This document shows positions 1-58,700 of a stretch of 64,000 nt of DNA, piece by piece. The translations under genes and the position numbers were made by a program. Positions within the stretch are counted from its first letter, which is position 1; every line of letters starts with the position of its first letter. Source of the stretch: Taeniopygia guttata (taxonomy: Eukaryota > Chordata > Aves > Passeriformes > Estrildidae); the NCBI RefSeq assembly GCF_048771995.1, contig NC_133026.1, forward strand, positions 151,861,001 to 151,925,000, written 5' to 3'. Under the pieces are notes generated by a model. It was not told the origin of the DNA, did no database searches, and saw only the letters and a list, made by a program, of their open reading frames with translations.

Positions 1-1734
1 GTAAGGGTCTAACACTGTCCCCCAGCCCCTCCCAGTGCTCCCAGTCTCACCAGTAAGGGTCTAACACTGTCCCCCAGTGCTCCCAGTGCTCCCAGTCTCA
101 CCAGTAAGGATCTAACACTGTCTCCCAGTGCTCCCAGTGCTCCCAGTCTCACCAGTAAGGATCTAACACTGTACCCCAGTGCTCCCAGTGCTCCCAGTCT
201 CACCAGTAAGGATCTAACACTGTCCCCCAGTGCTCCCAGTGCTCCCAGTCTCACCAGTAAGGATCTAACACTGCACCCCAGTGCTCCCAGTGCTCCCAGT
301 CTCACCAGTAAGGGTCTAACACTGTACCCCAGTGCTCCCAGTCTCACCAGTAAGGATCTAACACTGTACCCCAGTGCTCCCAGTCTCACCAGTAAGGGTC
401 ACACTGTGCCCCCCAATCCCACCCAGTGCTCCCAGTCCCACCAGTAAGGATCTAACACTGTACCCCAGTCCCTCCCAGTGCTCCCAGTCTCACCAGTTAG
501 GCTCACACCCTGTCCCCCAGCCCCTCCCAGTGCTCCCAGTCTCACCAGTAAGGGTCACACTGTGCCCCCCAGTGCTCCCAGTCTCACCAGTAAGGATCTA
601 ACACTGTACCCCAGTGCTCCCAGTGCTCCCAGTCTCACCAGTTAGGCTCACACCCTGTCCCCCAGCCCCTCCCAGTGCTCCCAGTCTCACCAGTAAGGGT
701 CACACTGTGCCCCCCAGTGCTCCCAGTGCTCCCAGTCTCACCAGTAAGGATCTAACACTGTACCCCAGTGCTCCCAGTCTCACCAGTAAGGATCTAACAC
801 TGTACCCCAGTGCTCCCAGTCTCACCAGTAAGGATCTAACACTGTACCCCAGTCCCTCCCAGTGCTCCCAGTCTCACCAGTAAGGATCTAACACTGTACC
901 CCAGTGCTCCCAGTGCTCCCAGTCTCACCAGTAAGGGTCTAACACTGTACCCCAGTCCCTCCCAGTGCTCCCAGTCTCACCAGTAAGGGTCCCACTGTGC
1001 CCCAGTCCCTCCCAGTGCTCCCAGTCTCACCAGTAAGGATCTAACACTGTACCCCAGTGCTCCCAGTCTCACCAGTAAGGGTCTAACACTGTACCCCAGT
1101 GCTCCCAGTCTCACCAGTAAGGGTCTAACACTGTCCCCCAGTGCTCCCAGTCTCACCAGTAAGGATCTAACACTGTACCCCAGCCCCTCCCAGTGCTCCC
1201 AGTCTCACCAGTAAGGGTCTAACACTGTACCCCAGTGCTCCCAGTGCTCCCAGTCTCACCAGTAAGGATCTAACACTGTCCCCCAGTGCTCCCAGTGCTC
1301 CCAGTCTCACCAGTAAGGATCTAACACTGTACCCCAGTGCTCCCAGTGCTCCCAGTCTCACCAGTAAGGGTCCCACCACACCCCCCAGCCCCTCCCAGTG
1401 CTCCCAGTCTCACCAGTAAGGGTCCCACTGTGCCCCCCAGTTCCTCCCAGTGCTCCCAGTCTCACCAGTAAGGGTCTAACACTGTACCCCAGCCCCTCCC
1501 AGTTCCTCCCAGTGCTCCCAGTCTCACCAGTAAGGATCTAACACTGTCCCCCAGCCCCTCCCAGTGCTCCCAGTCTCACCAGTAAGAGTCACACTGTGCC
1601 CCCCAGTGCTCCCAGTCCCTCCCAGTCTCACCAGTAAGGATCTAACACTGTACCCCAGTGCTCCCAGTGCTCCCAGTCTCACCAGTAAGGGTCTAACACT
1701 GTACCCCAGTTCCTCCCAGTGCTCCCAGTCTCAC
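1..1734 (-). repeat. GPAA1 intron 5: 34 copies of the exon 5 donor junction
   Basis: The unit is about 40-60 bp. In the gene's orientation it repeats the last exon 5 bases and the donor, CTTACTG|GTGAGACTGGG, followed by short GAGCACTGGG blocks. I counted 34 copies before the genuine junction at 1734/1735. Some copies vary at one base (AACTGGTGAG instead of TTACTGGTGAG). The array continues past the left edge. No other gene is visible here. Confidence 0.9.
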
Positions 1735-4700
1735 CAGTAAGGTTGACATCGTGGTAGGCCTCCAGCCAGGCCTGTGTCCCCAGCAGGTCGTGCTCGGTCA
1801 CCAGGAAGATGAGATCCTTGGCCCAGTACACCTGGCCTAGAAACCAGTATAAACCAGTATGGACCAGTACAGCCCAGTACAGCCCCAGCAAGGTGAGATC
1901 CTTGGCCCAGTACACCTGGCCTGGGAACCAGTATAAACCAGTATGGACCAGTACAGCCCAGTACAGCCCCAGCAGGATGAGATCCTTGGCCCAGTACACC
2001 TGGCCTGGAAACCAGTATAGACCAGTATGGACCAGTACAGCCCAGTACAGCCCCAGCAAGATGAGATCCTTGGCCCAGTACACCTGGCCTGGAAACCAGT
2101 ATAAACCAGTATGGACCAGTACAGCCCAGTAAAGACCAGTATGGAACCAGTACACCCAGTCTGGACCAGTACAGCCCAGTATGGACCAATACACCCAGTA
2201 CCTCCCAGTACATCCCAGTACCTCCCAGTACAGCCCAGTACCTCCCAGTACAGTCCCAGTACCTCCCAGTACAGCCCCAGTACCTCCCAGTACAGCTCCA
2301 GTACATCCCAGCACAGCCCCAGCACATCCCAGTACAGCCCCAGCACATCCCAGTACATCCCAGTACAGCCCCAGCACATCCCAGCACAGCCCCAGTACCT
2401 CCCAGTACAGCTCCAGTACCTCCCAGTACAGCCCCAGTACCTCCCAGTACAGCCCCAGTACCTCCCAGTATCTCCCAGTACAGCCCCAGTACCTCCCAGT
2501 ACATCCCAATATCTCCCAGTACAGCCCCAGTACATCCCAGTACAGCCCCAGTACCTCCCAGTACAATGCCAGCAGCCCCCCATGCCCCCTTGCCCCCCAT
2601 GCCCCCCACCCCGGCAGTGCCCCCCACCTCAGCAGTGCCCCCGTGCCCCCCAGCCCCCCATGTCCCCCATGCCCCCCATGCCCCCCGTGCTCCCCATGCC
2701 CCCCAGCCCCCCATACCCCCCATGCCCCCCATGCCCCCCATGCCCCCTGTGCCCCCCATGCCCCCCGTGCCCCCCGTGCCCCCCATGCCCCCCATACCCC
2801 CCATGCCCCTCGTGCCCCCCATGCCCCCCATACCCCCTGTGCCCCCCATACCCCCCATGCCCCCCATGCCCCCCATGCCCCCTGTGCCCCCCATGCCCCC
2901 CGTGCCCCCCGTGCCCCCCATGCCCCCCATGCCCCCCATACCCCCCGTGCCCCCATACCCCCCATACCCCCCATGCCCCCCATACCCCCCGTGCCCCCCA
3001 GCCCCCCGTGCCCCCCCGTGCCCACCTCGGCAGTAGCCCCCCATGGCCCCCAGCCCCCCGTGCCCCCCATGCCCCCTGTGCCCCCCATGCCCCCCGTGCC
3101 CCCCGTGCCCACCTCGGCAGTAGCCGGCCAGCGCCAGCAGCAGCCCCACGGCCTGGTTGTTCTTGCTGCCCTCGGAGCCGGGCACCAGCAGCAGCAGCGC
3201 CTCGGTGCTGGCGGCACGGGGGGCACGCAGCACCCCGAACACGTTGGTGCCCCGCACCAGCTGGGGGGGACAGCGGGGTCAGCACCCCAAACACCCCCAC
3301 AGCACCCCAAAACCTGAACAGGCACCCCAAACATCCCCACGGCACCCCGAAAACGTTGGTGCCCCGCACCAGCTGGGACAGGGACAGCGGGGTCAGCACC
3401 CAAAACCTGCACAGAGACCCCAAATCCACCCAGGGACCCCCATCCCCCCATTCCCAGTCACCCCAGTTCCCCCAGTCACCCCATACCTGCAGCATCCCCC
3501 ATTCCCCCATTCCCAGTGCTCCCAGTGCCCCCATTCCCAGTGCTCCCAGTGCCCCATTCCCCCATTCCCAGTGCTCCCAGTGCCCCATTCCCAGCACTCC
3601 CAGTGCTCCCAGTGCCCCCATTCCCAGTGCTCCCAGTGCCCCACTCCCCCATTCCCAGTGCTCCCAGTCCTACAAGTGCCCCCATTCCCAGTGCTCCCAG
3701 TGCCCCATTCCCAGTGCTCCCAGTGCCCCCAGTGCTCCATTCCCAGCACTCCCAGTGCTCCCAGTGCCCCCATTCCCAGTGCTCCCAGTGCCCCACTCCC
3801 CCATTCCCAGTGCTCCCAGTGCCCCATTCCCCCATTCCCAGTGCTCCCAGTGCCCCATTCCCAGCACTCCCAGTGCTCCCAGTGCCCCCATTCCCAGTGC
3901 TCCCAGTGCCCCACTCCCCCATTCCCAGTGCTCCCAGTCCTACAAGTGCCCCCATTCCCAGTGCTCCCAGTGCCCCATTCCCAGTGCTCCCAGTGCCCCC
4001 AGTGCTCCATTCCCAGCACTCCCAGTGCTCCCAGTGCCCCATTCCCAGTGCTCCCAGTGCTCCATTCCCAGTACTCCCAGTGCTCCCAGTGCCCCATTCC
4101 CAGTGCCCCATTCCCAGTGCTCCCAGTGCCCCATTCCCAGTGCTCCCAGTGCTCCCAGTGCCCCATTCCCAGTGCTCCCAGTGCTCCCAGTGCCCCATTC
4201 CCAGTGCCCCATTCCCAGTGCTCCCAGTGTTCCCAGTGCCCCATTCCCAGTGTTCCCAGTGCCCCCAGTGCCCTATTCCCAGCGCTCCCAGTGCCCCCAG
4301 TGCCCCACTCCCAGTGTTCCCAGTGCTCCCAGTGCCCCATTCCCAGCGCTCCCAGTGCTCCCAGTGCCCCCAGTACGTAGCGCTCGTGGGCCTCGTCGGG
4401 GAAGGGCAGCGTGCGGCTGAAGGGCTGGCGATGGACCTCGAGCCCCAGCTGGAACATGGTCTGCTCCAGCCACTCCACGGGCATGCCCCTAAAACAAATA
4501 AATATAAATAAATATGGGATTGGGATTGGGATTGGGGCACCCCAAACCATCCCTGAACCATCCCCAAACCATCCCCAAACCATCCCCAAACCCCACAGGC
4601 TCTGCTCCAGCCACTCCACGGGCATGCCCCTAAAACAAATATGGGATTGGGGTACCCCAAACCATCCCCAAACCATCCCCGGACCATCCCTGAACCATCC

Positions 4701-7604
4701 CCAAACCATCCCAAAACCCCACAGGCTCTGCTCCAGCCACTCCACGGGCATGCCCCTAAAAATAAAATATGGGATTGGGGCACCCCAAACCATCCCCAAA
4801 CCATCCCTGAACCCCACAGGCTCTGCTCCAGCCACTCCACGGGCATGCCCCTAAAACAAATATGGGATTGGGGTTGGGATATCCCAAACCATCCCCAAAC
4901 CATCCCCAAACCCACAGACTCTGCTCCAGCCACTCCACGGGCATGCCCCTAAAAGAAATCAATATGGGATTGGGGTACCCCAAACCATCCCTGAACCATC
5001 CCTGAACCCCACAGGCTCTGCTCCAGCCACTCCACGGGCATGCCCCTAAAAATAAATAAATATGGGATTGGGGCACCCCAAACCATCCCCAAAACATCCC
5101 CAAAACATCCCTGAACCATCCCCAAACCCCACAGGCTCTGCTCCAGCCACTCCACGGGCATGCCCCTAAAACAAATCAATATAAATAAATATGGGATTGG
5201 GGCACCCCAAACCATCCCTGAACCATCCCTGAACCATCCCCAAACCCCACAGGCCCTGCTCCAGCCACTCCACGGGCATGCCCCTAAAACAAATCAATAT
5301 AAATAAATATGGGATTGGGGCACCCCAAACCATCCCTGAACCATCCCTGAACCATCCCCAAACCCCACAGGCTCTGCTCCAGCCACTCCACGGGCATGCC
5401 CCTAAAACAAATATGGGATTGGGATTGGGGCACCCCAAACCATCCCTGAACCATCCCCAAACCATCCCCAAACCCCACAGGCCCTGCTCCAGCCACCCCA
5501 CGGGCATGGCCCTAAAACAAATCAATATGGGATTGGGGCACCCCAAACCATCCCCAAACCATCCCCAAACCCCACAGGCCCTGCCCCAGCCACTCCACGG
5601 GCATGCCCCTAAAACAAATATGGGATTGGGGCACCCCAAACCATCCCCAAACCATCCCTGAACCCCACAGACTCTGCTCCAGCCACTCCACGGGCATGCC
5701 CCTAAAAACAAATATGGGATTGGGATTGGGATTGGGGCACCCCAAACCATCCCCCAAATCCCCTCTCCAGCCACTCCAAGCAGGAGTGGGAATGGGAACT
5801 CCCCCCAAACCCCAAAGGCGTCACTCCGCTCTCCACTCGTCCCCCAAAACCATCTGGATGTGTCCCCCCTCCCCAAACCCCCCAAGCCACCCCCAAACTC
5901 AACCTCAAATCCCCCTCCCCAAATCCCCCCATTCTCACCCTGCTCTCCTCTTATGCCCCCCAAAATTCCCGGGTGTGTTCCCCAAACCCCAATCCCAAAC
6001 CCCAAATCCCCCGTTCTCACCCCACTCTCCTCTTGTGCGCCCCAAAGTCGCAGGTGTGTTCCCCAAACCCCAAACCCCAACCCCCAAATCCCCTGTTCTC
6101 ACCCCGCTCTCCTCTTGTGCCCCCTGAACTCCCAGGTGTGTTCCCCTCCCCAAATCCCAATCCAAACCCCCCAAACCCAAATCCCAAACCCCAAATTCCC
6201 CCGTTCTCACCCCACTTTCCTCTTGTGCGCCCCAAAGCCCCAGGTGTGTTCCCCTCCCCAAATCCCAATCCAAACCCCCCAAACCCAAATCCCAAACCCC
6301 AAATTCCCCCGTTCTCACCCCGCTCTCCTCTTGTGCGCCCCAAAGCCCCAGGTGTGTTCCCCTCCCCAAATCTCAATCCAAACCCCCCAAACCCCAATCC
6401 TGACCCCAAATCCCCCGTGCTCACCCCGCTCTCCTCTTGTGCCCCCTGAATTCGCAGGTGTGTTCCCCAAACCCCAAACCAAACCCCAAATCCCCCGTTC
6501 TCACCCCACTTTCCTCTTGTGCGCCCCAAAGTCACGGGTGTGTTCCCCAAACCCCATACCCCAACCCAAACCCCAAATCCCCCCGTTCTCACCCCACTTT
6601 CCTCTTGTGCGCCCCGAAATCCCGGGCCAGGGCGAGGGCGCGGGGCCCGAGGTCGGAGCCCTCCCCCACCATGGTGGAGCCCATGGCGTTCTCAGACAGG
6701 TACGTGCGGGGAGCCAGGGCCGGCAGCAGCAGGAACCAGGTGAGCCCCGCCAGGTAACTCAGGACACTGCGGGGGGCACCCCAAAATCATCAGTGACACC
6801 CCAAACCCACCCCAAACCCAGCCCTGACACCCCAAACCCAGCCCTGACACCCACACCCTGCACAGGTACGTGCGGGGAGCCAGGGCCGGCAGCAGCAGGA
6901 ACCAGGTGAGCCCCGCCAGGTAACTCAGCACGCTGCGGGGGGCACCCCAAAACTGTCAGTGACACCCCAAAATAACCCCTGACACCCCAAACCCACCCCA
7001 CACCCAGCCCTGACACCCAAACCCTGCACAGGTACGTGCGGGGAGCCAGGGCCGGCAGCAGCAGGAACCAGGTGAGCCCCGCCAGGTAACTCAGGACACT
7101 GCGGGGGCACCCCAAAATCACCATCGGCACCCCAAAAATAAACCCTGACACCCCAAACCCACCCCAAACCCAGCCCTGACACCCACACCCTGCACAGGTA
7201 CGTGCGGGGAGCCAGGGCTGGCAGCAGCAGGAACCAGGTGAGCCCCGCCAGGTAACTCAGGACACTGCAGGGGCACCCCAAAATCATCAGTGACACCCCA
7301 AAACCGTCAGTGACACCCCAAACCCACCCCACAGCCAGCACTGACACTCCAAAGTACCCCAGGACTCAGGTCCCCCCAGGGGTTTTGGGGTCCCCCAGGT
7401 TTCGGGGTGCCCCCCACTCACCAGAGGGGGGTGTTGGGTTCCCCCAGGGGTGTTGGGGTCCCCCCAGGGGTTTTGGGGTGCCCCCAGGGGTGTTGGGGTC
7501 CCCCCAGGTTTCGGGGTGCCCCCCACTCACCAGAGCGGGGTGTTGAGGCGCAGCAGCAGCCGGGCCAGCGCCCGCCGGCACTGCGGGTCCGACAGCAGCC
7601 CCAT
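1735..7604 (-). CDS. GPAA1: GPI transamidase subunit GPAA1, 5' five coding exons (gene continues past the left edge)
   Basis: GPAA1 is a subunit of the ER GPI transamidase, which moves preformed GPI anchors onto proteins. Coding exons read from the start are 7604-7531, 6766-6593, 4488-4377, 3260-3113 and 1836-1735; phases match throughout and give 203 residues plus one base. The start [20 protein letters not shown] matches the family start. Residues 26-43 form the N-terminal membrane helix, followed by [12 protein letters not shown] (49-60). The later exons carry the luminal M28-peptidase-like fold: [13 protein letters not shown], the conserved [16 protein letters not shown] block, and [20 protein letters not shown]. 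Exon 3 ends at a weak donor (GTACTG); every other donor is GTGRGN. The remaining exons should lie to the left of position 1. EXOSC4 lies upstream on the same strand, the usual vertebrate order. Identification is certain from length, order and sequence; the 5' UTR is not resolved. Confidence 0.96.
1837..3112 (-). repeat. GPAA1 intron 4: exon 5 acceptor decoys, CAGTACCTCC array and CCCCCATG array
   Basis: From 1837 to about 2110 there are three extra copies (about 80 bp unit) of the exon 5 start with its acceptor, reading CAG|GCCAGGTGTACTGGG on the minus strand. From 2110 to 2565 a 10-15 bp unit around cagtacctcc fills the intron. From 2565 to 3112 a nine-base unit around ccccccatg or ccccccgtg follows. 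Short copies of the exon 4 end (CTGCCGAGGTGGGC) sit at about 3021-3036, with a degenerate one near 2610-2640. The arrays are stop-free on both strands and create long false reading frames. Confidence 0.85.
3261..4376 (-). repeat. GPAA1 intron 3: CCCATTCCCAGTGCTCCCAGTG minisatellite with one exon 4 start decoy
   Basis: A decoy of the exon 4 start with acceptor (CAG|CTGGTGCGGGGCACCAACG) lies at 3354-3380 and diverges from the exon after about 31 bases. From 3450 to 4370 a roughly 22-bp unit of CCCATTCCC plus AGTGCTCCC blocks repeats, with a higher-order duplication: 3660-3930 closely resembles 3930-4100. No gene lies inside. Confidence 0.85.
4489..5780 (-). repeat. GPAA1 intron 2, acceptor side: 11 copies of the exon 3 start with its T-rich acceptor
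   Basis: The unit is about 95-130 bp. In gene orientation each copy carries a T-rich tract, TTTTAG and the first 29-30 exon 3 bases (coding GMPVEWLEQ), then CCTGTGGGGTTTGGGGATGG. Only the copy at 4377-4488 continues into the conserved exon. A further partial copy lies near 5765. The T-rich tracts (AATAAATATAAATAAATA on the plus strand) are the most AT-rich bases in this part of the window. Confidence 0.9.
5925..6592 (-). repeat. GPAA1 intron 2, donor side: 7 copies of the exon 2 end
   Basis: The unit is about 85-110 bp and holds the last exon 2 bases (coding GAHKRK) followed by GTGAGAAC or close variants. The genuine donor is at 6592/6593. Copies start near 5932, 6013, 6098, 6205, 6313, 6418 and 6499. 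Intron 2 is thus almost wholly built from copies of its own two ends. Confidence 0.88.
6767..7530 (-). repeat. GPAA1 intron 1: three exon 2 start decoys and one exon 1 end decoy
   Basis: Three copies, at about 6866-6940, 7032-7105 and 7199-7270, carry a decoy acceptor and about 73 exon 2 bases coding [20 protein letters not shown]. They then diverge to TGCAGGGTGTGGG, where the true exon reads on into SENAMGS. A copy of the exon 1 end plus GTGAGTG lies near 7420-7440, inside CCCCAGGGGTTTTGGGGT repeats. Confidence 0.88.
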
Positions 7605-8335: not shown

Positions 8336-8459
8336 CCCGCATCCCACACGGGCCTGACCCGGCCCTTCCCCTGCCCCGCACCCCCCTGTGCCCTCCGGGA
8401 CCCCCGAAATGCCCCAAAATGCCCCAAAACGCCCCAAAATGCCCCAAACCCCCAAAACC

Positions 8460-8668: not shown

Positions 8669-9395
8669 AATGGGTTTGGGGGGAAAGGGGGAAAATGGGG
8701 GGAAAAGGGGGAAAAAAGGGGGAAAAACGGGGGGAAAAGGGGGAAAAAAGGGGGAAAAACGGGGGAAAAGGGGGAAAAACGGGGGAAAAGGGGGAAAAAC
8801 GGCGGGAAAAGGGGAAAAAGGGGGAAAAGCGGGGGGGGAAGGGGGAAAAAGGGGGAAAAAGGGGGAAAAACGGGGGAAAAGGGGGGAAAAAGGGGGAAAA
8901 AGGGGGAAAAAGGGAAAAAGGGGGAGAAAGGGGAAAAAGGGGAAAAAGGGGAAAAGGGGAGAGGGGGGAAAAGGGGAAAAACGGGGAAAAACGGAGGGGA
9001 AAGGGAGGAAAGGGGGAAAGGGGAAAAAGGGGGAAAAAGGGGAAAAAGGGGAAAAGGGGAAAAAGGGGGAAAAAGGGGAAAAAGGGGGAAAGGGGAAAAA
9101 GGGGGAAAACGGGTAAAATGGGGAAAAACGGGGGGAAAGGGGAAAAACGGGGGAAAGGGGGAAAAAGGGGGAAAGGGGGAAAAAGGGGGGAAAAACGGAG
9201 GGAAAGGGGGAAAAAGTGGGGGGAAAGGGGGAAAAACGGGGGAAAGAGGGAAAAAACGGGAGGAAAGAGGGAAAAACGGGGGGAAAAGGGGGAAAAACGG
9301 GGGGAAAAGGGGAAAGGGGGAAAGGGGGAAAAAGGGGGAAAAAAGGGGGAAAAAAGGGGAAAAACGGGGGGAAAGGGGGAAAAAGGGGGGGCTGG
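8662..9395 (+). repeat. 730-bp polypurine (G/A) tract between EXOSC4 and GPAA1
   Basis: The plus strand is almost purely G and A here: runs of 3-8 G alternate with runs of 3-6 A, broken only by occasional single C or T (ACGGGG). It is C/T on the transcribed minus strand. All plus frames stay open for long stretches, giving lysine/glycine-rich false proteins. Such tracts can form triplex (H-DNA) and G-quadruplexes. It lies between the EXOSC4 poly(A) signal and the GPAA1 promoter. Confidence 0.9.
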
Positions 9396-14600: not shown

Positions 14601-14786
14601 CGCGGCCCCGCTCACCTCGTGCGGGCCGTACACGGCCGCCAGCACTTTGGTGTTGCCCTGCTCCAGGTAGGCCGAACCGTCCGCCCGGGCCAGCACCCCG
14701 AGCCGGGCCCGCACCTTGCGCAGCTCGTCCGGCCGCCGCCCGTCCGCCCGGAACCCCGCGTCGGACAGCAGCTCCAGCCCCGCCAT
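11661..14786 (-). CDS. EXOSC4: Exosome complex component RRP41 (EXOSC4)
   Basis: EXOSC4 is one of the six RNase PH-like subunits of the exosome ring, which channels RNA to the catalytic DIS3/EXOSC10 subunits in nucleus and cytoplasm; in animals the ring itself is taken to be inactive. Exons are 14786-14616, 13500-13282 and 12032-11661: 57, 73 and 123 residues, all phase 0, 253 in total against about 245 in mammals. The sequence opens MAGLELLSDAGFRADGRRPD. The RNase PH landmarks are EQGNTKVLAAVYGPHE (42-57), YPRSQIDVHVQ at the exon 2 end, and LQADGGELGASVSAAGLALL in exon 3. Exon 2 has an unusually GC-rich stretch (GGGERRRRPGPGGSDRRAAE). The C-terminus MVRARLRQDTAMEQ ends at TGA in a donor-like context, so a spliced 3' UTR is possible. 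It shares a promoter region head-to-head with OPLAH. Confidence 0.96.
12033..13281 (-). repeat. EXOSC4 intron 2: five copies of the exon 2 end and two of the exon 3 start
   Basis: Copies of the exon 2 end (62-78 coding bases, QLYPRSQIDVHVQ, plus donor GTCAGG) lie at about 12535-12602, 12722-12788, 12858-12925, 12986-13062 and 13141-13222. The three farthest share loss of the same 12 bases, which marks a subfamily. Copies of the exon 3 start with acceptor lie at about 12127-12182 and 12352-12412. C-rich ccccaggaccccccaaac and cccaaaaacacccc filler lies between. Confidence 0.9.
13501..14615 (-). repeat. EXOSC4 intron 1: five copies of the exon 2 acceptor in a GGGGGCTGGGAGTGGG array
   Basis: CCGCAG|GTTCGGGGGTCCC, the exon 2 start with its acceptor, recurs near 13577, 13778, 13868, 14141 and 14336. 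The filler is a 40-50 bp unit around ggctgggagtgggggcacgg and acatggggggctgtgg. From 14525 to 14610 a 28-bp unit (cacaagccccgggagaggc) repeats the first intron bases next to the exon 1 donor. Confidence 0.85.
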
Positions 14787-49300: not shown

Positions 49301-49791
49301 TGTATTTGGGGTCAGTTTTGGGGTATATTTCTGGTATATTTGGGATATATTTGGGGTATATTTGGGGTGCCACTGCCCGTCCCCAGGGCTGCATGAACAG
49401 CGGGGTTTGGGGTGTATTTGGGGTCAGTTTTGGGTATATTTGGGGTATATTTGGGGTGTATTTGGGGTATATTTGGGGTATATTTGGGGTCAGATTTGGG
49501 GTGTATTTGGGGTCAGTTTTGGGTATATTTGGGATGTATTTGGGGTACATTTGGGGTGCCACTGCCCATCCCCAGGGCTGCATGAACAGCGGGATTTGGG
49601 GTGTATTTGGGGTACATTTGGGGTCAGTTTTGGGTATATTTGGGATATATTTGGGGTACATTTGGGGTGCCACTGCCCGTCCCCAGGGCTGCATGAACAA
49701 CGTGACGTTCGGCTCGGCCCGGGGCGGGTACTACGAGACGGTGGCGGGGGGCGCGGGGGCCGGGCCGGGCTGGGCCGGGCGCAGCGGGGTC

Positions 49792-49829
<38 letters not shown>

Positions 49830-52717
49830 GATCCTCGAGCTCCGGTGGGTTTTGGGGGGTCCTGGGGTTCCTGGGGGGGTCTGGGGGGTTTGGGGGGGTT
49901 TGGGGGGTCGGGGGTCCCACACGCACATGACCAACACCCACATCACCGACCCCGAGATCCTCGAGCTCCGGTGGGTTTGGGGGTCCGGGGGGGTTTGGGG
50001 GGATTTTGGGGGGTCCTGGGCGGGTCCCGAGTGGCTCCCTGAGGAGGGGTCCCCGGGGGTTTCGGGGCTCTCTTGGTGACTGCTGTGGGATTTTGGGGTG
50101 CCCCTCTTGGCCCTCCATATCTCCCTCCCCCCCAGGTACCCACTGGTTAGACTTGTGGGGGGTTTGGGGTGTCTCGGGTGGGATTTTGGGGGTCCTGACC
50201 CCTCTCCCCCCCCCCAGGTACCCGGTGGTGCTGTGGGGGGTTTGGGGGGTCTCGGGTGGGATTTTGGGGTTCCTGACCCCCGTTTTTTCCCTCCCAGGTA
50301 CCCGGTGGTGCTGGGGGGGGGGGTTGGGGGGTGTCAGGGTGATTTTGGGGGTCCTGACCCCCGTTTTCCCCCTCCCAGGTACCCGGTGGTGCTGGGGGGG
50401 AGGGGGTCAGGGCAGGTTTGGGGTGTCTCGGGTGGGATTTTGGGGTTCCTGACCCCCTTTTCCCCCCTCCCAGGTACCCGGTGGTGCTGCGGCGCTTTGA
50501 GCTGCGGGCGGGCTCGGGGGGCGCGGGGCGGCACCGGGGGGGGGACGGGGTGATCCGGGAGCTGCAGTTCCGTGAGCCCACCCAACTCTCGGTGCTGAGC
50601 GAGCGCCGCGCCACGCGGCCCTACGGCATGGCGGGTGAGACCCCAAAACCCCCCAAATCCCCCCAAAATTCCCCCAAAAATCCCCCCAAAATTCCCCCAA
50701 AAATCCCCCCAAAAATCCCCCCAAATCCCAAAAAAATTCCCCCAAAAATCCCCCCCAAAAATCCCCCCCAAAATCCCCCCCAAAATTCCCCAAAAAATCC
50801 CCTAAAAATCCCCCCAAAATCCCCCCAAAATCCCCCAGCGCCACGTGGCCCTACGGCATGGCGGGTGAGACCCCAAAATCCCCCAAATCCCCCCAAAAAT
50901 CCCCCCAAAATCCCCCAAAAATGCCCCCCAAAATCCCCCCTAAAATCCCCCCAAAAATCCCCCCAAAAATCCCCCCAAAAATCCCCCCAAAAATCCCCCC
51001 AAAATCCCCCAAAATCCCCCCAAAATCCCCCCAAAATCCCCCCAAAATCCCCCCCAAAATTCCCCCAGAAATCCCCCCCAAAATTCCCCCAGAAATCCCC
51101 CCCAAAATTCCCCCAAATCCCCCAAAAATCCCCCCAAAATTCCCCCAAAATCCCCCCAAAAATTGCCCCCAAATCCCCCCACACCACGCGGCCCTACGGC
51201 ATGGCGGGTGAGACCCCAAAATCCCCCAAAGCCCCCAAAAATTCCCCAGAAATCCCTCCAAAAATCCCCCCAAAATCCCCCCAAAAATCCCCCCCAAACT
51301 CCCCCTCAAAATCGCCCCCCAAATCCCCCCCAAATCCCTTGGGACCCCCTCAATTTCTCAGTCCCCCACCCCGAGACCCCCCAGATCCTCCCAAATCCCC
51401 CCAGATCCCCCTTCAGTTCCCCCCTGACTCCCCCCGACCCCCCAAATCCCCCCTGACCCCCCCTGACCCCCCTGACCCCCCTGACCCCCCTGACCCCCCT
51501 GACCCCCAAATCCCCCCTGACCCCCCTCTCGCCCAGGGGGTCTCCCGGGGGCCCCGGGGCTGAACCTGCTGCTGCGGCGGGACGGGCGCCTCATCAACCT
51601 GGGGGGCAAGAGCTCGGTCAGCGTGGAGCCGGGGGTGAGCAAAACCCCAAAAACACCCCAAAAACTGCCCTGAAACCGCCCCAAACCCACCCCAAAAACT
51701 GCCCTAAAAACTGCCCCAAAACTGCCCCAAAATCACCCCAAACCTCATCAACCTGGGGGGCAAGAGCTCGGTCAGTGTGGAGCCGGGGGTGAGCACAACC
51801 CCAAAATCACCCCAAAAACTGCCCTGAAACCGCCCCAAAAACTGCCCCAAAATCACCCCAAAAACTGCCCTGAAACCGCCCCAAACCCACCCCAAAAACT
51901 GCCCCAAAAACTGCCCCAAAACCGCCCCAAAGTCACCCCAAACCCCATCAACCTGGGGGGCAAGAGCTCGGTCAGCGTGGAGCCGGGGGTGAGCAAAAAC
52001 CCCAAAATCACCCCAAAAACCGCCCTGAAACCGCCCCAAAATCACCCCAAAAACCGCCCTGAAACCGCCCCAAAATCACCCCAAAAACTGCCCCGAAACT
52101 GCCCCAAAATCACCCAAAAAACTGCCCCAAAACCGCCCCGAAACCACCCCAAACCCCATCAACCTGGGGGGCAAGAGCTCGGTCAGCGTGGAGCCCGAGG
52201 TGAGCAAAAACCCCAAAAACCGCCCCAAACACACCCCAAAATCATTGCAAAAACCACCACAAAACCACCCCAAAATTCCCCAAATCACCCCAAAATCACC
52301 CCAAACCCTGACCCCAAACCCTGATCCGTATCCTGACCCCAAACCCTGACCCCAAACCCCAAACCCAAACCCCAAACCGGACCCCAAACCCGACCCCAAA
52401 CCCCAAACCCTGACCCCAAACCCAAACCTGACCCCAAACCCTGACCCTAAACCCCAAACCCCAAACCCGACCCCAACCCTCTCTCCCCACAGGACATCTT
52501 CCGCCTGCTGACCCCGGGCGGGGGCGGCTTTGGCCCCCCCGAGGATGGGGGTGACCCCCAGGGCCCCCCGGAGCCCCCGGACCCCCAGGACCTCTGGGCC
52601 CCCCAGAACTCCCCGGGCCCCCAAAACCCCGGCGGCCCCCCGGGCCCCCCGACCCCACAAACCGTCCCGGAGCGCAGCAGCGTCTTCGAGTTCCGCCAGG
52701 CGCAGGAGGCCGTGTGA
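16302..52717 (+). CDS. OPLAH: 5-oxoprolinase (OPLAH), complete, 26 coding exons
   Basis: OPLAH is the cytosolic ATP-dependent enzyme of the gamma-glutamyl cycle that opens 5-oxo-L-proline to L-glutamate. Exons: 16302-16475, 17668-17859, 20949-21063, 21877-22000, 23757-23952, 25114-25279, 26623-26761, 27770-27837, 28435-28805, 29076-29188, 30858-31028, 31851-31988, 37148-37286, 37844-37956, 38735-38886, 39759-39919, 40389-40490, 41686-41860, 43443-43627, 46341-46472, 47464-47598, 48516-48665, 49687-49844, 50474-50634, 51537-51634, 52493-52717. They sum to 4053 bases (1350 residues; mammals 1288) with every phase matching. The hydantoinase A half shows [10 protein letters not shown] (15-24), [11 protein letters not shown] (80-90), GFDMGGTSTD (318-327) and FGGAGGQH (529-536). 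The hydantoinase B half shows [10 protein letters not shown] (828-837), [14 protein letters not shown] (860-873) and SRGHHAD (893-899). The last exon has a longer Pro/Gly-rich tail and ends EFRQAQEAV. Nothing suggests inactivation. Confidence 0.97.
16476..17667 (+). repeat. OPLAH intron 1: GGGACCCCCGGG repeats, then about 15 copies of the exon 2 start
   Basis: From 16490 to 16800 units of cgggacacggcgggaccccc and cgagtgccctgctgggac repeat. From about 16940 to 17660 the unit is CACAG|GAACTGGGGGTGCCGCTGCC, then CCGG|GTGAATTTTGGGGT. Most copies therefore have an acceptor, a 24-base block equal to the exon 2 start (coding ELGVPLPR) and a donor-like GTGAAT. Some carry a 36-base version. Only the last copy, at 17668, runs on into the exon. 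Confidence 0.9.
17860..19540 (+). repeat. OPLAH intron 2, donor side: nine copies of the exon 2 end
   Basis: About 45 coding bases (CTGCTGCACATCGGC... to TTCGACCTG, coding [15 protein letters not shown]) plus GTGAGC recur near 17948, 18114, 18270, 18427, 18592, 18735, 18937, 19080 and 19251. They are separated by (A)CACCTGGGCACA and CCCAAACCCA repeats. Single substitutions separate the copies (CGGCCGCAG, CGCCCGCAG, CGGCCACAC). Confidence 0.92.
19541..20948 (+). repeat. OPLAH intron 2, remainder: TGTCCC array, then its inverse GGGACA array
   Basis: From about 19,720 to 20,410 units of tgtcccctgtccctgtccc and gtgtccccctgtg dominate. After a roughly 70-bp unique spacer (20412-20482) the sequence turns to gggacagggacaggggaca until about 20,800. 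Around 20,222-20,270 and 20,600-20,650 the two halves are near-perfect reverse complements, including gtgtcaggtgtccttggcg and its reverse. This gives an inverted repeat with arms of about 80 bp and a loop of about 260 bp. No gene lies inside. Confidence 0.8.
21064..21876 (+). repeat. OPLAH intron 3: four copies of the exon 3 end and five of the exon 4 start
   Basis: From 21064 to about 21410 copies of the exon 3 end (coding [13 protein letters not shown]) plus the GTGGGA donor alternate with gggtggcactgggacac. From about 21,520 to 21,870 five copies (about 70 bp) carry CCCCCAG|GGGTGGCCGGGGTG, then accctgctggtgcag, and diverge at tttggggg where the exon reads cggccgctg. The intron is copied inward from both ends. 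Confidence 0.92.
22001..22715 (+). repeat. OPLAH intron 4, donor side: two exon 4 end copies flanking a GGTTTGGGGGGTCCTGGGG array
   Basis: Copies of the exon 4 end (GCGGTGCTGCTGCTGCACAG, then CTACGC|GTGAGG) lie at about 22108-22147 and 22677-22717, the second with several substitutions. Between them lies a roughly 20-bp G-rich unit, ggtcctgggggtggtttggg, in about 25 copies. Confidence 0.88.
22716..23756 (+). repeat. OPLAH intron 4, acceptor side: unique TAATT-rich segment, 46-bp repeat and five exon 5 start copies
   Basis: From 22,716 to 22,905 the sequence is mostly unique and less GC-rich, with a cluster of GTTAATT/CTAATT motifs at 22788-22834. From 22,906 to 23,098 a 46-bp unit (gtgcccgaatttgggtctgg plus a gaaaaaagagagaaaa block) repeats four times. 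From 23,100 on, CAGGTGTGACACAGGTGACA repeats carry five copies of CAG|GTGGCCCGGGCACGAG, the exon 5 start with its acceptor. Confidence 0.85.
23953..25113 (+). repeat. OPLAH intron 5: GGGACTGACCCGGGATAGAG repeats and 11 copies of the exon 6 start
   Basis: From 23,960 to 24,340 a 12-25 bp unit of cgggactgacacgggactga type fills the donor side. From 24,385 to 25,113 eleven units of 52-80 bp carry TTTTTAG|GGGGTGCAGGTGCTG, then ttcatgcgctcgg. In the copies the next bases read CTCTGA, an in-frame stop after [12 protein letters not shown], whereas the true exon reads CTCACGCCC. Three copies lack the cgctcggac bases. Confidence 0.92.
25280..26622 (+). repeat. OPLAH intron 6: GGGGTCCCGGGGG array, then GCAGTTTTGGGGTCCC array
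   Basis: From 25,290 to 25,700 a 30-35 bp unit (ggggtcatggggagggggtc, ccgggggtctg) repeats. From about 25,715 to 26,615 a 15-18 bp unit of cccgcagtttcggggt type repeats about 55 times. Each unit contains CCGCAG, the same hexamer as the true acceptor at 26617-26622, but no exon 7 coding bases are copied. Confidence 0.85.
26762..27769 (+). repeat. OPLAH intron 7: three exon 7 end copies and a GGGGAGGGGGTCCAGGGGCTG array
   Basis: Three copies of CTCTTCTTCAG|GTGGG or CTGTTCTTCAG|GTGGG lie within 26,795-26,885 beside the true donor. From 26,930 to 27,570 a 21-bp unit (gaggagggggtccaggggct) repeats about 30 times. From 27,600 to 27,768 tgtccccctgagtgtccccg units form the pyrimidine-rich acceptor side. 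Confidence 0.85.
27838..28434 (+). repeat. OPLAH intron 8: about nine copies of the exon 9 start
   Basis: The unit is 40-90 bp: gtccccag|gcggtccctgac, then ccccgtgtccccgcggt. The decoys lack one C compared with the genuine exon start (GCGGTCCCCTGACTGTCACC), so their reading frame differs from the first codons on. Some copies read ccagccggtccc. Confidence 0.85.
28596..28721 (+). repeat. Coding minisatellite in OPLAH exon 9
   Basis: The 126 bases code residues 446-487, a run built only from Gly, Ser, Asp, Thr and Ala and closing with one Glu (GSGGSGG blocks, then GDTGDTADT blocks). The unit is 9 bp (ggcgacaccggg or ggcggctcc type). Mammalian OPLAH has a shorter, non-repetitive linker at this place. 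The flanks [21 protein letters not shown] and [19 protein letters not shown] align normally, so this is an in-frame expansion of a surface loop. Confidence 0.88.
28806..29075 (+). repeat. OPLAH intron 9: CCCTCCCGCTGGGTGGGTGTCCC repeat
   Basis: Four to five copies of a roughly 55-bp unit (tcccgctgggtgggtgtccc, then tcgggggtcccgggggtc). No exon bases are copied here. Confidence 0.75.
29189..30857 (+). repeat. OPLAH intron 10: CCCCCGGGATGGGGCGGGG array and eight copies of the exon 11 start
   Basis: From 29,195 to 29,640 a 30-bp unit (ggggacccccgggatggggc) repeats. From 29,935 to 30,857 eight units of 95-150 bp carry CCCCCAG|GCACAGCGGGCTGC, then tgtcggcgct. Most add CGGGCT before passing into gtcccggggctgtcccgggg, and the copy at about 30,133 keeps more exon (cggactggcgctg). 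Only the copy at 30,858 continues to [14 protein letters not shown]. Confidence 0.92.
31029..31850 (+). repeat. OPLAH intron 11: GGGACAGGGGACAGCGGGAT array with two exon 11 end copies
   Basis: The exon 11 end plus donor (GGGCACAGGGATTCGCACCG|TGAG type) recurs near 31,083 (with GGCCCGTGAGAG) and 31,361. The filler is a 10-25 bp G-rich unit. From 31,720 to 31,830 gtgacacagtgtgacac units precede the acceptor. Confidence 0.85.
31989..37147 (+). repeat. OPLAH intron 12: 4.3-kb array of an 18-19 bp unit, plus one exon 12 end copy
   Basis: From 31,990 to 32,320 a 19-20 bp unit (gtcaccagtcctgtcccagt) repeats, then one copy of the exon 12 end (about 50 coding bases plus GTCAGTGCCACAG) at 32,329-32,390. 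From about 32,440 to 36,770 the unit CCCCAATCCCATCTGTGCA alternates with CCCCAATCCCATCCCTCA and CCCCAATCCCATCCCCTCA, roughly 230 copies. It has no stop in any plus frame, so all three frames stay open for over 1600 codons. The minus strand GGGATTGGGG can form G-quadruplexes. Confidence 0.93.
37287..37843 (+). repeat. OPLAH intron 13: two exon 13 end copies and one exon 14 start copy
   Basis: GCACCCCCCGCGCCCCGAGACG|GTGAG, or its GCTCCGAGACG variant, recurs at about 37,347-37,378 and 37,428-37,457. From 37,490 to 37,570 ggggcactggg repeats follow. At 37,755-37,800 a copy of the exon 14 start with acceptor (about 44 coding bases, coding [14 protein letters not shown]) stands before the true one at 37,844. 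Confidence 0.88.
37957..38734 (+). repeat. OPLAH intron 14: GGGACAGGGACAGG array, then GGGTTTTGGGGGGTCCC array
   Basis: From 37,960 to 38,350 units of gggacagggacagggga repeat; from 38,395 to 38,715 units of gggggtcccgggggg and tttggggggtcccgg repeat. No exon bases are copied. Both are G-rich on the transcript strand. Confidence 0.8.
38887..39758 (+). repeat. OPLAH intron 15: GTCTCTCGGGGGTCTCTCAGG array with one exon 16 start copy
   Basis: At 39,580-39,640 a copy of the acceptor (CCCTAACCCCGCAG) and about 43 exon 16 bases (coding [12 protein letters not shown]) occurs, then diverges at aacaccaaccgtgctgg. The true exon begins at 39,759. The filler unit is 15-30 bp around ggggtctctcgggggtcccg. 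Confidence 0.88.
39920..40388 (+). repeat. OPLAH intron 16: two 70-base copies of the exon 16 end
   Basis: At 40,019-40,088 and 40,187-40,256 the exon 16 end is copied with about 70 coding bases ([20 protein letters not shown], then QFQ) plus the GTGGG donor. The copies are almost identical to the exon; changes include GCGCCC, CCTGTG and GCTATG in the second. These are the longest exon pieces copied in OPLAH. The filler is ggggggatttggggggtccc. Confidence 0.9.
40491..41685 (+). repeat. OPLAH intron 17: three exon 17 end copies and two exon 18 start copies
   Basis: GGGGGCAGCCACCTGCCCGA, then CCTGACCGTCATCACACC|GTGAG type, recurs at about 40,577, 40,717 and 40,950 inside cacctgggggcacctggggg repeats. 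Copies of the exon 18 start (CAG|GTGTTCTGGCCGGGCCAG, then CCCCGCCC) lie near 41,378 and 41,545 inside cctgtcccagtccctaaccc repeats. Confidence 0.9.
41861..43442 (+). repeat. OPLAH intron 18: seven exon 18 end copies, GGGGACATT array, four exon 19 start copies
   Basis: About 55 coding bases (coding [17 protein letters not shown]) plus GTGGGAC recur near 42,003, 42,171, 42,269, 42,358, 42,450, 42,566 and 42,725. Two copies read GGGCAGTTCC and one TTCCTGTCC. The filler is an eight- to nine-base unit, ggggacatt. Exon 19 start copies with acceptor (CCCCAG|CGGTGACCGAGGCC, then ctgctggcccccggggc) lie near 43,101, 43,185, 43,266 and 43,347. Confidence 0.93.
43628..45850 (+). repeat. OPLAH intron 19, donor side: 21 copies of the exon 19 end
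   Basis: The unit is 93-113 bp: ATGCCCTGTGCCCCGGGCTG, then 33 exon bases (coding [11 protein letters not shown]), donor GTCAGAC, and a variable CCCCAAAAATACCC filler. Two classes differ as GAGGTGGTG (as in the exon) and GAGGCCGTG, intermixed along the array. The copies are far more uniform than the filler, which suggests recent spread or homogenisation. Confidence 0.94.
45851..46340 (+). repeat. OPLAH intron 19, acceptor side: three copies of the exon 20 start
   Basis: CCCCAG|GCCAACGCGGAGCTGG, then the bases coding [11 protein letters not shown], recur at about 45,942 (diverged, gcacacgcgg), 46,062 and 46,210. In the copies the frame ends at GCGCTGTGA or GTGCTGTGA; the genuine exon at 46,341 reads GCGCGCTGGGGG instead. 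The filler is ctgtgtgaccccgtgtgacc. Confidence 0.9.
46473..47463 (+). repeat. OPLAH intron 20: GGGGACAGAGA array, then TTTTGGGGTCCCTGTGGGCTCC array
   Basis: From 46,480 to 46,880 units of ggggacagtgaggggacaga repeat, about 35 copies of an 11-bp core. From 47,040 to 47,440 units of tttggggtcacctgggtt and tttggggtccctgtgggctc repeat. No exon bases are copied. Confidence 0.8.
47599..48515 (+). repeat. OPLAH intron 21: one exon 21 end copy, CCAGGTGTGCC array, two exon 22 start copies
   Basis: A copy of the exon 21 end (about 60 bases coding [18 protein letters not shown] plus GTGAGACC) lies at 47,690-47,755. From 47,940 to 48,510 gtgcccaggtgtacccaggt repeats. Two copies of the exon 22 start with acceptor (CCCCAG|GGCTGCCTGGCCCC, then cgtccaggtgcggatccc) lie near 48,163 and 48,285. 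Confidence 0.9.
48666..49686 (+). repeat. OPLAH intron 22: TATATTTGGGGT array with four exon 23 start copies
   Basis: After a short ggggcggggccgggg run at 48,668-48,720, an 11-18 bp unit (tatatttggggtgtatttgg) fills the intron. It is the most T-rich array in the gene. CAG|GGCTGCATGAACAGCGGG, the exon 23 start with its acceptor, lies near 48,795 (GCAAGAAC), 49,275, 49,387 and 49,577. The genuine exon reads AACAACGTGACG. Confidence 0.9.
49845..50473 (+). repeat. OPLAH intron 23: one exon 23 end copy and four exon 24 start copies
   Basis: At 49,918-49,975 about 57 bases of the exon 23 end (coding [16 protein letters not shown]) plus GTGGGT are copied. CCCAG|GTACCCGGTGGTGCTG recurs near 50,136 (diverged, cccactggtt), 50,217, 50,299 and 50,380, in units of 80-85 bp with ttttggggttcctgaccccc filler. 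Confidence 0.9.
50635..51536 (+). repeat. OPLAH intron 24: CCCCCCAAAAATCCCC array with two exon 24 end copies
   Basis: GCCCTACGGCATGGCGG|GTGAG, the exon 24 end, recurs at about 50,848-50,873 and 51,190-51,214. The rest is a 9-12 bp unit of ccccccaaaaatc type, C-rich on the transcript strand, unlike most OPLAH introns. Confidence 0.9.
51635..52492 (+). repeat. OPLAH intron 25: three exon 25 end copies in a CCCCAAAAACTGCCC array
   Basis: CTCATCAACCTGGGGGGCAA, then GAGCTCGGTCAGYGTGGAGC, plus GTGAGC recur at about 51,743, 51,945 and 52,156 (coding [14 protein letters not shown]). From 52,300 to 52,480 a six-base repeat, ccaaac with ctgacc variants, precedes the last exon. Confidence 0.9.
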
Positions 52718-55430: not shown

Positions 55431-55489
55431 GTCAGCCTGGTCAGTGACACCTGTGGGGACACGGCCGGGCCCCCGGGGTCACGCCGAGG

Positions 55490-55690: not shown

Positions 55691-55743
55691 GCTCAGGTCC
55701 GAGCTGTGTCCGGCCCCGTGTCCGGCCCCGTGTCCGTGCGGGG

Positions 55744-58700
55744 TCAGAGGTCAGCGGGCCCCAGGCGCAGCCGCAGGGCCACGGGCAGGTGGTCAGACAG
55801 TGTGGCCAGCTGGGTGATGACCGAGTAGCCGGTGACCTCCTGTGGGGACAGCGGGGGGTCACTGGGGTCACTGGGGGGTCCCAAGTCCCAGTGGTCACTC
55901 ACGACAGCCAGCGCGGGGTCCCAGGGGGTCAGTGAGGGGTCACAGGGGTCACTGGGGGTCCCCGGTCACTCACGGTGGCCAGCGCGGGGTCCCAGGGGGT
56001 CAGTGGGGGTTCATTGGGGGGGTCCCGGTCCCTGCGGTCACTCACGGTGGCCAGCGCAGGGTCACAGGGGTCACTGGGGTCACTGGGGGTTCATTGGGGG
56101 TCCTGGGGGTCAGTGGGGGGGTCACTGCGGGTCACTGGGGGTCACTCACGGTGGCCAGCGCGGGGTCACAGGGGTCACAGGGGTCACAGTGGTCAGTGGG
56201 GGGTCCCGGGGGTCCCAGGGGGTTCATTGGGGGGTCCCAGGGGTCACTCACGGTGGCCAGCGCAGGGTCACAGGGGTCAGTGGGGGTTCATTGGGGGTCC
56301 CAGGGGTCACTGGGGGGTCCCGGGGGTCACTCACGGTGGCCAGCGCGGGGTCACAGGGGTTACTGGGGGTCACAGGGGTCACTGGGGGGTCCCAGGGGTC
56401 CCGGGGGTCCCGGGGGTCACTCACGGTGGCCAGCGCGGGGTCCCTCCGCAGCAGCACCCTGTCCACCCTCCGGCCCCGCCACGGCCGCGGCGCCCGCGGG
56501 TCCAGCGCCCCGCAGGACAGGATGGGACCCGCCAGGAACCGCTCGCGTCCCTCGGGCTGCGACAGCGTCCTGGGGACAGGGACACGGGATGTGGGGACAT
56601 GGGGACATGGGGACATGGGGACATGGGGACATGGGACATGGGGACATGGGACATGGGGACACAATGGGACACGATGGGACAGCGTCCCTCGGGCTGCGAC
56701 AGCGTCCTGTGGGGTGGGGACACGGGATGTGGGGACATGGGGACATGGGGACATGGGGACACAACGGGACAGCGTCCCTCGGGCTGCGACAGCGTCCTGG
56801 GGACAGGGACACGGGGACATGGGGACATGGGATGTGGGGACATGGGGACATGGGGACACGATGGGACAGCGTCCCTCGGGCTGCGACAGCGTCCTGCGGG
56901 GTGGGACAGGGACATGGGGACATGGGGACATGGGGACATGGGGACATGGGGACATGGGGACATGGGGACACAACGGGACAGTGTCCCACGGGCTGCGACA
57001 GCGTCCTGTGGGGTGGGGACAGGGACATGGGGACATGGGGACATGGGGACATGGGGACATGGGACATGGGGACATGGGGACATGGGACATGGGGACATGG
57101 GGACATGGGGACATGGGGACACAACGGGACAGTGTCCCACGGGCTGCGACAGCGTCCTGTGGGGTGGGGACAGGGACATGGGGACATGGGGACATGGGAC
57201 ATGGGGACATGGGGACATGGGACATGGGGACATGGGGACATGGGAACATGGGGACACAACGGGACAGCGTCCCTCGGGCTGCGACAGCGTCCTGCGGGAT
57301 GGGGACAGGGACATGGGACATGGGACATGGGGACATGGGGACACGGGGACATGGGGACATAACGGGACAGCGTCCCACGGGCTGCGATAGCGTCCTGAGG
57401 GATGGGGACATGGGGACATGGGGACATGGCCGGACACAGCCGGACACAACGGGACAGCGTCCTGCAGGACGGGACAGGGACACACGGGGACACAATGGGA
57501 CAGCGTCCTGTGGGACGGGGACAGGGACACGGGACATGGGGACACAGCCAGACACGGGACGTGGGGACGTGGGGACACGGGGACACAGCGGGACAGCGTC
57601 CTGCAGGACAGGGACAGGGACACGGGACGTGGGGACACAACGGGACAGCATCCTGCGGGACACGACACGGGATGTGGGGACATGGGGACATGGGGACACG
57701 GCCGGACACGACAGGACAGCGTCCTGTGGGACAGGGACACAGGACGTGAGGACGTGGGGACACAGCGGGACAGCGTCCTGTGGGACACAGACATGGGACG
57801 TGGGGACAGAGTGACACAGGGACAGAGGGACATGGGGACACAGTGGGACACAAGGACACGAGGGCATGGGGACACAGTGGGACAGAGTGGGATGGAGTGA
57901 TGGGGACACAGGGACATGGAAACACACGGAGACAGCAGGACACAGGGACAGGGTGACATGGGAACACGGGGACAGTGACACAGGGACACCGTGGGACACG
58001 GGGGATGGAGAACCCCCCACCCCTCCAGGCTGATGGGTCAGCTGGACCCTTCTTGTCCCCACTGTGTCCCCCCGTGTGTCCCCAGTGTCCCCATTGTCAC
58101 CTCCTCATCTTCTCAGGGGTGGACACGGGCTCCTCGTAGATCTTGAGCCAGTTGAGCAGCGTCCCTGGGGACAGGAGGGGACAGGGAGTGAGAGTGACCC
58201 TGGGCACAGGGAGGGGACAGCAGGGGACAGAGTGAGAGTGACCCTGGGCACGGAGAGGGGACAGGAGGGGACAGAGTGAGAGTGACCCTGGGCACGGGGA
58301 GGGGACAGGAGGGGACAGGGAAGGGACAGGAGGGGACAGGAGGGGACAGAGTGAGAGTGACCCTGGGCACGGGGAGGGGACAGGAAGGGACAGGAGGGGA
58401 CAGGAAGGGACAGAGAGGGGACAGGAGGGGACAGGGAGTGAGTGGGATTCTGGACACGGGGAGGGGACAGGGACATGTACGAGTCCCCAGACATGGGAAG
58501 GTGACAGTGGGGGCTTCAGGAGGTGACAGCGGGGATCCCAGTGGAGGTGACAGCAGGGTCCCCAGGACGGTGATAGTGGGGTCCCTGGGGAAGTGACAGT
58601 GAGGTCCCCAGGCAGGGGCAACACTGGGGTCCCCGGTCAGGGGGTGCCACTGGGGTCCCCGGGGAGGTGACAGTGGTGTCCCCACCGATGGCCCAGGGCT

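Follow-up and report, generated by a model that had tools for sequence, protein, structure and literature searches.

Probable exon stuttering in a songbird: arrays of exon edges and splice sites fill introns in a repeat zone near the end of a large contig

Sequence stuttering was named on chicken dot chromosomes by Hron et al. (Genome Biol Evol 2026; PMC12954441; we draw throughout on the parts of that paper that we consulted). Its exonic form, exon stuttering, copies a lateral part of an exon together with its donor or acceptor site into the intron and leaves the exon itself unchanged. It was published in February 2026 as a feature tied to dot chromosomes, its mechanism unknown and left between replication stress at G-quadruplexes (G4) and meiotic events. 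In chicken it was found in 236 introns, 190 of them on dot chromosomes (among 5572 dot-chromosome introns) and 36 on macrochromosomes; the exon hits have a median of 36 bp, with more than 90% at the exon border, and the general structure of the arrays in PHF8 was verified with raw nanopore reads. Here we describe a 64,000-nucleotide stretch of the zebra finch, Taeniopygia guttata (positions 151,861,001–151,925,000 of contig NC_133026.1, assembly GCF_048771995.1; hereafter the window), in which introns of GPAA1, EXOSC4, OPLAH and SMPD5 hold repeated copies of their own exon edges. An earlier reading of this DNA (hereafter the original prediction) had held that no named phenomenon covers such arrays. 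Exon stuttering does cover them, and the window is very probably a case of it, in a songbird and within a zone of repeats that lies some 0.6 Mb short of the end of a 152.5-Mb contig.

Two other described systems share part of this picture. GC-rich hidden bird genes (PMC4539667, 2015; PMC6792250, 2019 case studies) have the same high GC, and the 2019 paper adds G4 motifs and introns filled with tandem repeats; the consulted parts of these papers do not describe the copying of exon edges with their splice sites. Variable number tandem repeats in human genomes are likewise enriched in subtelomeres (PMC7608644), but that work is on human sequence, and exon-edge units or a near-continuous zone are not mentioned in the parts consulted. 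A literature search for papers joining at least four of OPLAH, GPAA1, birds, tandem repeat and chromosome 2 returned none.

To define the splice junctions, we rebuilt the exon models with a custom spliced protein-to-DNA alignment of bird proteins from a homology search and of human RRP41. In the window these models contain 38 donors and 37 acceptors (75 junctions) and 38 introns, with GT at 38/38 donors and AG at 37/37 acceptors. The coding parts are free of stops in all four models, GPAA1 being partial and the computed EXOSC4 exon 3 ending 14 bp early, which affects no junction. Over aligned residues, the OPLAH protein of the window is 96.6% identical to a zebra finch OPLAH protein (P0001), 93.8% to that of Vidua, 90.8% to that of Agelaius and 86.1% to that of Catharus.

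We then searched the adjacent intron of each junction with a query of at most 90 exon bases plus 25 intron bases, and counted as junction-spanning copies those matches with a raw score of at least 50 that included at least 6 bp of exon and at least 4 bp of intron. Such copies were present at 42 of the 75 junctions (29 in OPLAH, 8 in GPAA1, 3 in EXOSC4 and 2 in SMPD5), compared with 0 of 750 control searches, ten per junction, in non-adjacent introns. Lowering the raw score to 30 raised the count to 44 junctions, with 1.2% of controls positive. The copied exon part spans 13–78 bp (median 35.5 across the 42 junctions), and there are 1–33 copies per junction (median 3). Self-alignment of introns to their flanking exons, the check proposed with the original prediction, thus upheld its counts: about 42 of about 75 junctions in four genes on both strands, with the same number for each gene. 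The units had been put at 10–75 coding bases plus the splice site.

We also reran the published chicken screen (at least 42.1 bits, length at least 20) on the 38 introns. Twenty-four were positive, with 137 exon matches in proximal introns and none in distal or shuffled introns; 125 of the 137 lie within 1 bp of the exon border, and the median exon part is 39 bp. The locus therefore shows these features of exon stuttering: copies of an exon part with its splice site in the adjacent intron, strictly local copying with its source at the border, introns covered by repeats and exons left intact, in the same kind of GC-rich and G4-rich setting. The association with dot chromosomes, usual but not defining, is absent, the window lying on a contig of 152.515 Mb. 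The density here, 24/38 introns, is far higher than the 190/5572 on chicken dot chromosomes, but the ratio is rough, as the chicken annotation was provisional and its figure a lower bound.

The repeats extend well beyond the splice junctions. We measured repeat coverage as the fraction of 14-mers recurring within 3 kb (within 1.5 kb in samples of 1.5 kb). Coverage was 0.67–0.85 in the six 10-kb pieces of the window, 0.74–0.87 in nine sampled 10-kb stretches from 150.861 to 151.861 Mb and 0.18–0.53 in seven sampled stretches to the right of the window, compared with 0.005–0.011 in internal controls at 140.86 and 148.86 Mb. Among the 1.5-kb samples, four from 149.2 to 150.4 Mb gave 0, and those at 152.3 and 152.5 Mb gave 0.19 and 0.30. 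As far as the sampling shows, repeats therefore become dense somewhere between 150.4 and 150.86 Mb and stay so until about 151.93 Mb, a zone of roughly 1 Mb or more; its inner border is marked, and coverage falls again toward the end of the contig. The '60 kb block' of the original prediction is part of this larger zone. The assembly totals 1.141 Gb in 41 contigs, and the window occupies 151.861–151.925 Mb of its contig. In the table of homologues, OPLAH lies on contigs of 143–173 Mb in ten other birds and on shorter contigs in the others, so that it is often found on a large chromosome. Both this and the position of the zone indicate that dot chromosomes are not required. The window has 6.2 G4 motifs per kb on one strand and 7.3 on the other, and the two internal controls have 0 to 0.1 per kb. 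Outside its coding sequence, most of the window consists of imperfect tandem arrays that arose by local expansion. These include a G/A-rich intergenic array of GGGGGAAAA-like units (about 73 copies by Tandem Repeats Finder, window 8678–9389), showing that expansion is not limited to introns.

The arrays might be started by the splice junction itself, through the splicing machinery, an R-loop or the step in base composition between exon and intron. The original prediction had pointed this way, describing a consistent seeding at junctions, and both the copies at 42/75 junctions and the 125/137 matches that begin at the exon border would fit. We compared junctions with random intron points, drawing these only from introns of 400 bp or more, each 115 bp or more from the intron ends, and dropping the 6 of 75 junctions that lie in shorter introns. 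One-sided straddling copies were found at 1367 of 1725 random points (79%) but at only 42 of 69 junctions (61%); the per-intron rates predict 54.7 of 69, and none of 20,000 simulations gave a count as low as 42. Junctions are thus not preferred, and in the window are spared relative to random intron points. Nor are introns copied from both ends in excess: such introns exist, as had been claimed, but they number 12 of the 37 with both ends in view, and independence predicts 20 x 21 / 37 = 11.4. Repeats are also equally dense in the nine stretches sampled to the left of the window. As a replication set we used GPAA1 introns 5–10, left of the window, excluding the doubtful GPAA1 donor 8, which sits in a repeat, from all replication figures unless stated. 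There, 8/10 junctions have copies (9/11 with donor 8) compared with 213/300 random points, a small excess in a small sample that shows neither a deficit nor a clear preference. We therefore regard initiation at junctions as improbable.

That junctions are straddled less often than random points instead fits local expansion without regard to position, followed by selection on coding sequence, a combination of tandem duplication and selection on the exon that the original prediction had itself offered. Within introns, 37,819 of 45,370 bases (83%) lie in 14-mers repeated inside the same intron; the corresponding figure for exon bases is 6.5%, all of it confined to two exons. These two, OPLAH exon 9 and SMPD5 exon 1, contradict the claim that the exon is never itself duplicated, and they hold the only exonic arrays in this 14-mer scan, with periods of 9 and 18 bp and 0% indels. 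Coding exons are thus spared except where an array is in frame. The exon overhang averages 0.38 of the unit length, below the uniform expectation, which fits a loss of units with too little splice signal, although detection limits also shape this ratio. On frame selection acting on unit length, two counts differ: the smallest spacing within an array is a multiple of 3 in 21/42, the nearest-copy distance in only 16/42. We found no sign of branch-point retention, the intron part of acceptor units being no longer than that of donor units (p = 0.76).

We next compared the copied exon parts with the exons, keeping the 38 of 42 arrays with at least 18 exon bp and skipping 3 bp at donors and 2 bp at acceptors. 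Copied positions vary at 24/496 first, 37/492 second and 71/500 third codon positions (p = 2.5e-8, likelihood-ratio test allowing for base, CpG context and copy number). Of the distinct codon differences, 65/139 (47%) are synonymous, compared with 27% expected under uniform mutation. The replication set gave the same pattern, with 21/149 third positions and 18/297 first and second positions varying (p = 0.005; 32/192 and 38/381 with donor 8 kept). To ask whether amino-acid variants in the copies occur in other birds, we used 21 OPLAH proteins (two from Catharus), 8 GPAA1 proteins, none from a songbird, and 9 SMPD5 proteins, hand-picked from 360 homologues; EXOSC4 was left out, the set holding no bird EXOSC4. 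In these three genes, 14 of 66 distinct variants are the residue of another bird, compared with 9.7% by chance (p = 0.004). In arrays of at least two copies, variants shared between copies match another bird in 10/23 cases (p = 2.6e-5 against the same chance rate) and single-copy variants in 4/32 (Fisher p = 0.011 for shared versus single). The copies therefore carry, at a statistically supported level, variants known from other birds, the direction of change being unsettled site by site. The third-position bias, together with the shared variants that match other birds, suggests that the exon repeatedly served as a source of copies or exchanged sequence with them, so that the arrays preserve exon states that differ from the present one, some of them probably older. 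For example, at OPLAH codon 208 the exon has GAG (E) and the copies, from near to far, CAG, CAG, GAG, GAG and CAG. Such mixed states imply that copies were made both before and after a change in the exon, or that exon and copies exchanged sequence; codon 989 is likewise mixed, with GTG and GCC.

Several observations weigh against this reading. Most arrays are not simple tandems: the repeated copies claimed at the outset are there, but when an array is matched to itself without gaps at the offset of the nearest copy, 90% or more of the unit is covered in just 4/42 cases. Most arrays are interrupted by indels or shorter intronic repeats. At codon 208, Q is found in four of five songbird proteins (zebra finch, Vidua, Agelaius and Acridotheres), yet Catharus and most other birds have E (14 E, 6 Q and 1 R among all compared). 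The 14 variants with a match in another bird divide evenly: in 7, such as those at GPAA1 residues 74, 77 and 82, the compared birds have the copy residue more often than the exon residue, and in the other 7 less often. One array, GPAA1 donor 2, supplies 4 of the 14. The other 52 of the 66 variants were unseen in the compared birds, which, with three stop codons among the codon differences, indicates that copies also decay independently. No clear gradient of age with distance from the exon appeared (mean rho -0.17, 12/17 negative, p = 0.12). In arrays of at least three copies, the third-position excess is present in single-copy variants (35/69) as well as in shared ones (37/62; p = 0.20), so this test does not separate the history of the exon from selection on the copies. 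One sampled stretch, L018, has a repeat coverage of 0.74 with only 0.5–0.6 G4 motifs per kb. Finally, a main feature of stuttering is length variation among individuals, and our data come from one assembly.

On the preferred reading, exon stuttering, the exon edge would be one member of its own array and would have supplied copies, or exchanged sequence with them, on several occasions. In DNA rich in GC and G4, replication or repair synthesis may generate the copies by repeated short back-jumps, and unequal exchange or conversion may reshuffle them, a scheme that suits arrays that are mostly other than simple tandems. Purifying selection would then remove the events that break the exon or its genuine splice site, and other mutations in the copies could accumulate freely.

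A further possibility, which we hold only tentatively and consider doubtful on balance, is that exon edge and copies form one concertedly evolving array with flow in both directions, so that copies can write variants into the exon. The mixed states at codons 208 and 989 fit either direction, and at codon 208 the exon could even have regained E from an old copy. If this were true, stuttering would be an engine of protein change at exon borders, near the ends of large bird chromosomes as well as on dot chromosomes.

Selection might instead have kept the copies as splice decoys or as alternative exon ends that tune splicing. Their splice cores are intact: with anchors that exclude the core, GT or AG was lost in 0 of 167 decoys (38 arrays), compared with 186 changes among 2940 copied exon dinucleotides, and in the replication set the core was lost in 1/70 and exon dinucleotides changed in 120/1128 (with donor 8, 4/126 donor core bases differ). 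The bias of copy–exon differences toward synonymous changes points the same way. However, counted by site the signal is moderate (0/76 core sites and 61/988 first or second codon positions, p about 0.008), and intact cores are also expected if the copies arose recently from an exon in which the core itself cannot change. Moreover, use of a decoy would cause a frameshift or introduce a stop in 184/210 cases, many of the distinct codon differences are radical in addition to the stop codons noted above, and copy number runs from 1 to 33. A selected role is thus improbable, to about the same degree as initiation at junctions; no use was found for any decoy, and they appear to be by-products.

Some decoys have nevertheless entered gene predictions. 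Our scan of 360 proteins for repeated exon-edge peptides returned two cases in OPLAH: a predicted protein of the zebra finch (P0019) contains the acceptor 18 edge two times, and one of the pigeon (P0018) contains the acceptor 23 edge four times. Among the 120 OPLAH models in the scan, most have no such peptides. The pigeon repeats (Columba livia, residues 1155–1252) are of the exon 24 acceptor edge, a junction that has an array in the window too; judged by eye, the copies end almost at one exon base, a hint of an old or recurrent array. Another zebra finch predicted protein, P0243, aligns to several SMPD5 acceptor 5 decoys as if they were exons. As gene predictions, these three suggest that other birds have arrays at these junctions, and do not amount to proof of splicing. 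Other peptide matches (ARGHEA in six proteins, GPLTVT in one) are far apart and seem unrelated.

An origin of the repeats in long-read assembly or polishing is very improbable: regions of this kind are hard to sequence and assemble, as the consulted parts of PMC6792250 describe, but the copies differ from the exon with a codon-position bias, exon-edge repeats occur at the same junctions in zebra finch and pigeon OPLAH predictions (from separate assemblies, to judge by the species), the OPLAH and SMPD5 frames are open, and the general structure of the chicken PHF8 arrays was confirmed in raw reads.

Genes and arrays of the window. Positions are window coordinates; copies are those of the junction-spanning search, and the exon part is that of the unit.
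Feature	Position	Strand	Copies	Exon part (bp)	Details
GPAA1, exons 1–5	1..7604	-			exons 7604-7531, 6766-6593, 4488-4377, 3260-3113, 1836-1735; spliced alignment of bird GPAA1 proteins; human GPAA1 in PDB 7w72
EXOSC4, 3 exons	11661..14786	-			exons 14786-14616, 13500-13282, 12032-11661; spliced alignment of human RRP41
OPLAH, 26 coding exons	16302..52717	+			complete open reading frame; spliced alignment
SMPD5, 7 coding exons	55744..61465	-			exons 61465-60002, 59930-59858, 59148-59008, 58775-58686, 58164-58101, 56569-56425, 55839-55744; spliced alignment of songbird SMPD5
GPAA1 donor 5 array	28..1748	-	33	8 or 14	exon part in copies displayed
GPAA1 acceptor 4 array	1801..2113	-	3	36	
GPAA1 donor 4	3001..3141	-	1	29	
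GPAA1 acceptor 3	3230..3399	-	1	31	
GPAA1 acceptor 2 array	4454..5714	-	11	35	
GPAA1 donor 2 array	5917..6626	-	7	34	
GPAA1 acceptor 1 array	6696..7288	-	3	71	
GPAA1 donor 1	7397..7545	-	1	15	
EXOSC4 acceptor 2	11975..12414	-	2	58	
EXOSC4 donor 2 array	12509..13359	-	5	78	
EXOSC4 acceptor 1 array	13488..14172	-	4	13	
OPLAH acceptor 1 array	16929..17692	+	12	25	
OPLAH donor 2 array	17812..19321	+	9	48	
OPLAH donor 3 array	21022..21393	+	4	42	
OPLAH acceptor 3 array	21516..21905	+	5	29	
OPLAH donor 4	21965..22722	+	2	36	
OPLAH acceptor 4 array	23189..23783	+	5	27	includes codon 208
OPLAH acceptor 5 array	24358..25167	+	11	54	
OPLAH donor 7 array	26735..26902	+	3	27	
OPLAH acceptor 8 array	28207..28448	+	3	14	
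OPLAH exon 9 in-frame coding array	28600..28719	+	13.3		period 9 bp, 0% indels
OPLAH acceptor 10 array	29926..30894	+	8	37	
OPLAH donor 11	31010..31405	+	2	19	
OPLAH donor 12	31942..32395	+	1	47	
OPLAH donor 13	37253..37475	+	2	34	
OPLAH acceptor 13	37732..37902	+	1	59	
OPLAH acceptor 15	39574..39803	+	1	45	
OPLAH donor 16	39849..40280	+	2	71	
OPLAH donor 17 array	40452..41005	+	3	39	
OPLAH acceptor 17	41365..41716	+	2	31	
OPLAH donor 18 array	41805..42803	+	7	56	
OPLAH acceptor 18 array	43080..43482	+	4	40	
OPLAH donor 19 array	43588..45831	+	21	40	
OPLAH acceptor 19 array	45920..46389	+	3	49	
OPLAH donor 21	47536..47771	+	1	63	
OPLAH acceptor 21	48146..48547	+	2	32	
OPLAH acceptor 22 array	49250..49705	+	3	19	
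OPLAH donor 23	49786..49991	+	1	59	
OPLAH acceptor 23 array	50195..50492	+	3	19	
OPLAH donor 24	50608..51230	+	2	27	
OPLAH donor 25 array	51589..52220	+	3	46	
SMPD5 donor 6 array	55885..56444	-	6	20	
SMPD5 acceptor 5 array	56545..57414	-	7	25	
SMPD5 exon 1 in-frame coding minisatellite	60413..60789	-	20.9		period 18 bp, 0% indels

The four genes are neighbours on human 8q24.3 as well. GPAA1 runs on leftward past the window edge, where spliced alignment places exons 6–11. The 3' end of its exon 8 (about -2698 to -2953 in window coordinates) enters a lysine-rich repeat; the donor of this exon is unsettled, and the exon end has possibly been altered by stuttering. The OPLAH exon 9 array encodes a linker rich in GS and GDT, and the matching linker is short in duck and kiwi proteins (P0020, P0021). 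Our first OPLAH model had an intron between two pieces of exon 9, which we dropped, there being no GT from 28557 to 28730 and the frame being open. Over the SMPD5 exon 1 array, a Vidua protein (P0241) has a shorter stretch and a tree sparrow protein (P0307) related repeated residues.

To the published account of exon stuttering this locus adds three points: the arrays do not favour junctions, they occupy a zone close to the end of a large chromosome, and their copies carry exon states that differ from the present one; the junction-preference, codon-position and residue signals do not appear in the consulted parts of Hron et al. Genome annotation is affected in some cases: for OPLAH, one model each from zebra finch and pigeon has read decoys as exon. 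The arrays can be used for ordering exon substitutions and for asking whether copies convert exons. High-density stuttering in a songbird near the end of a large chromosome would separate the process from dot chromosomes as such.

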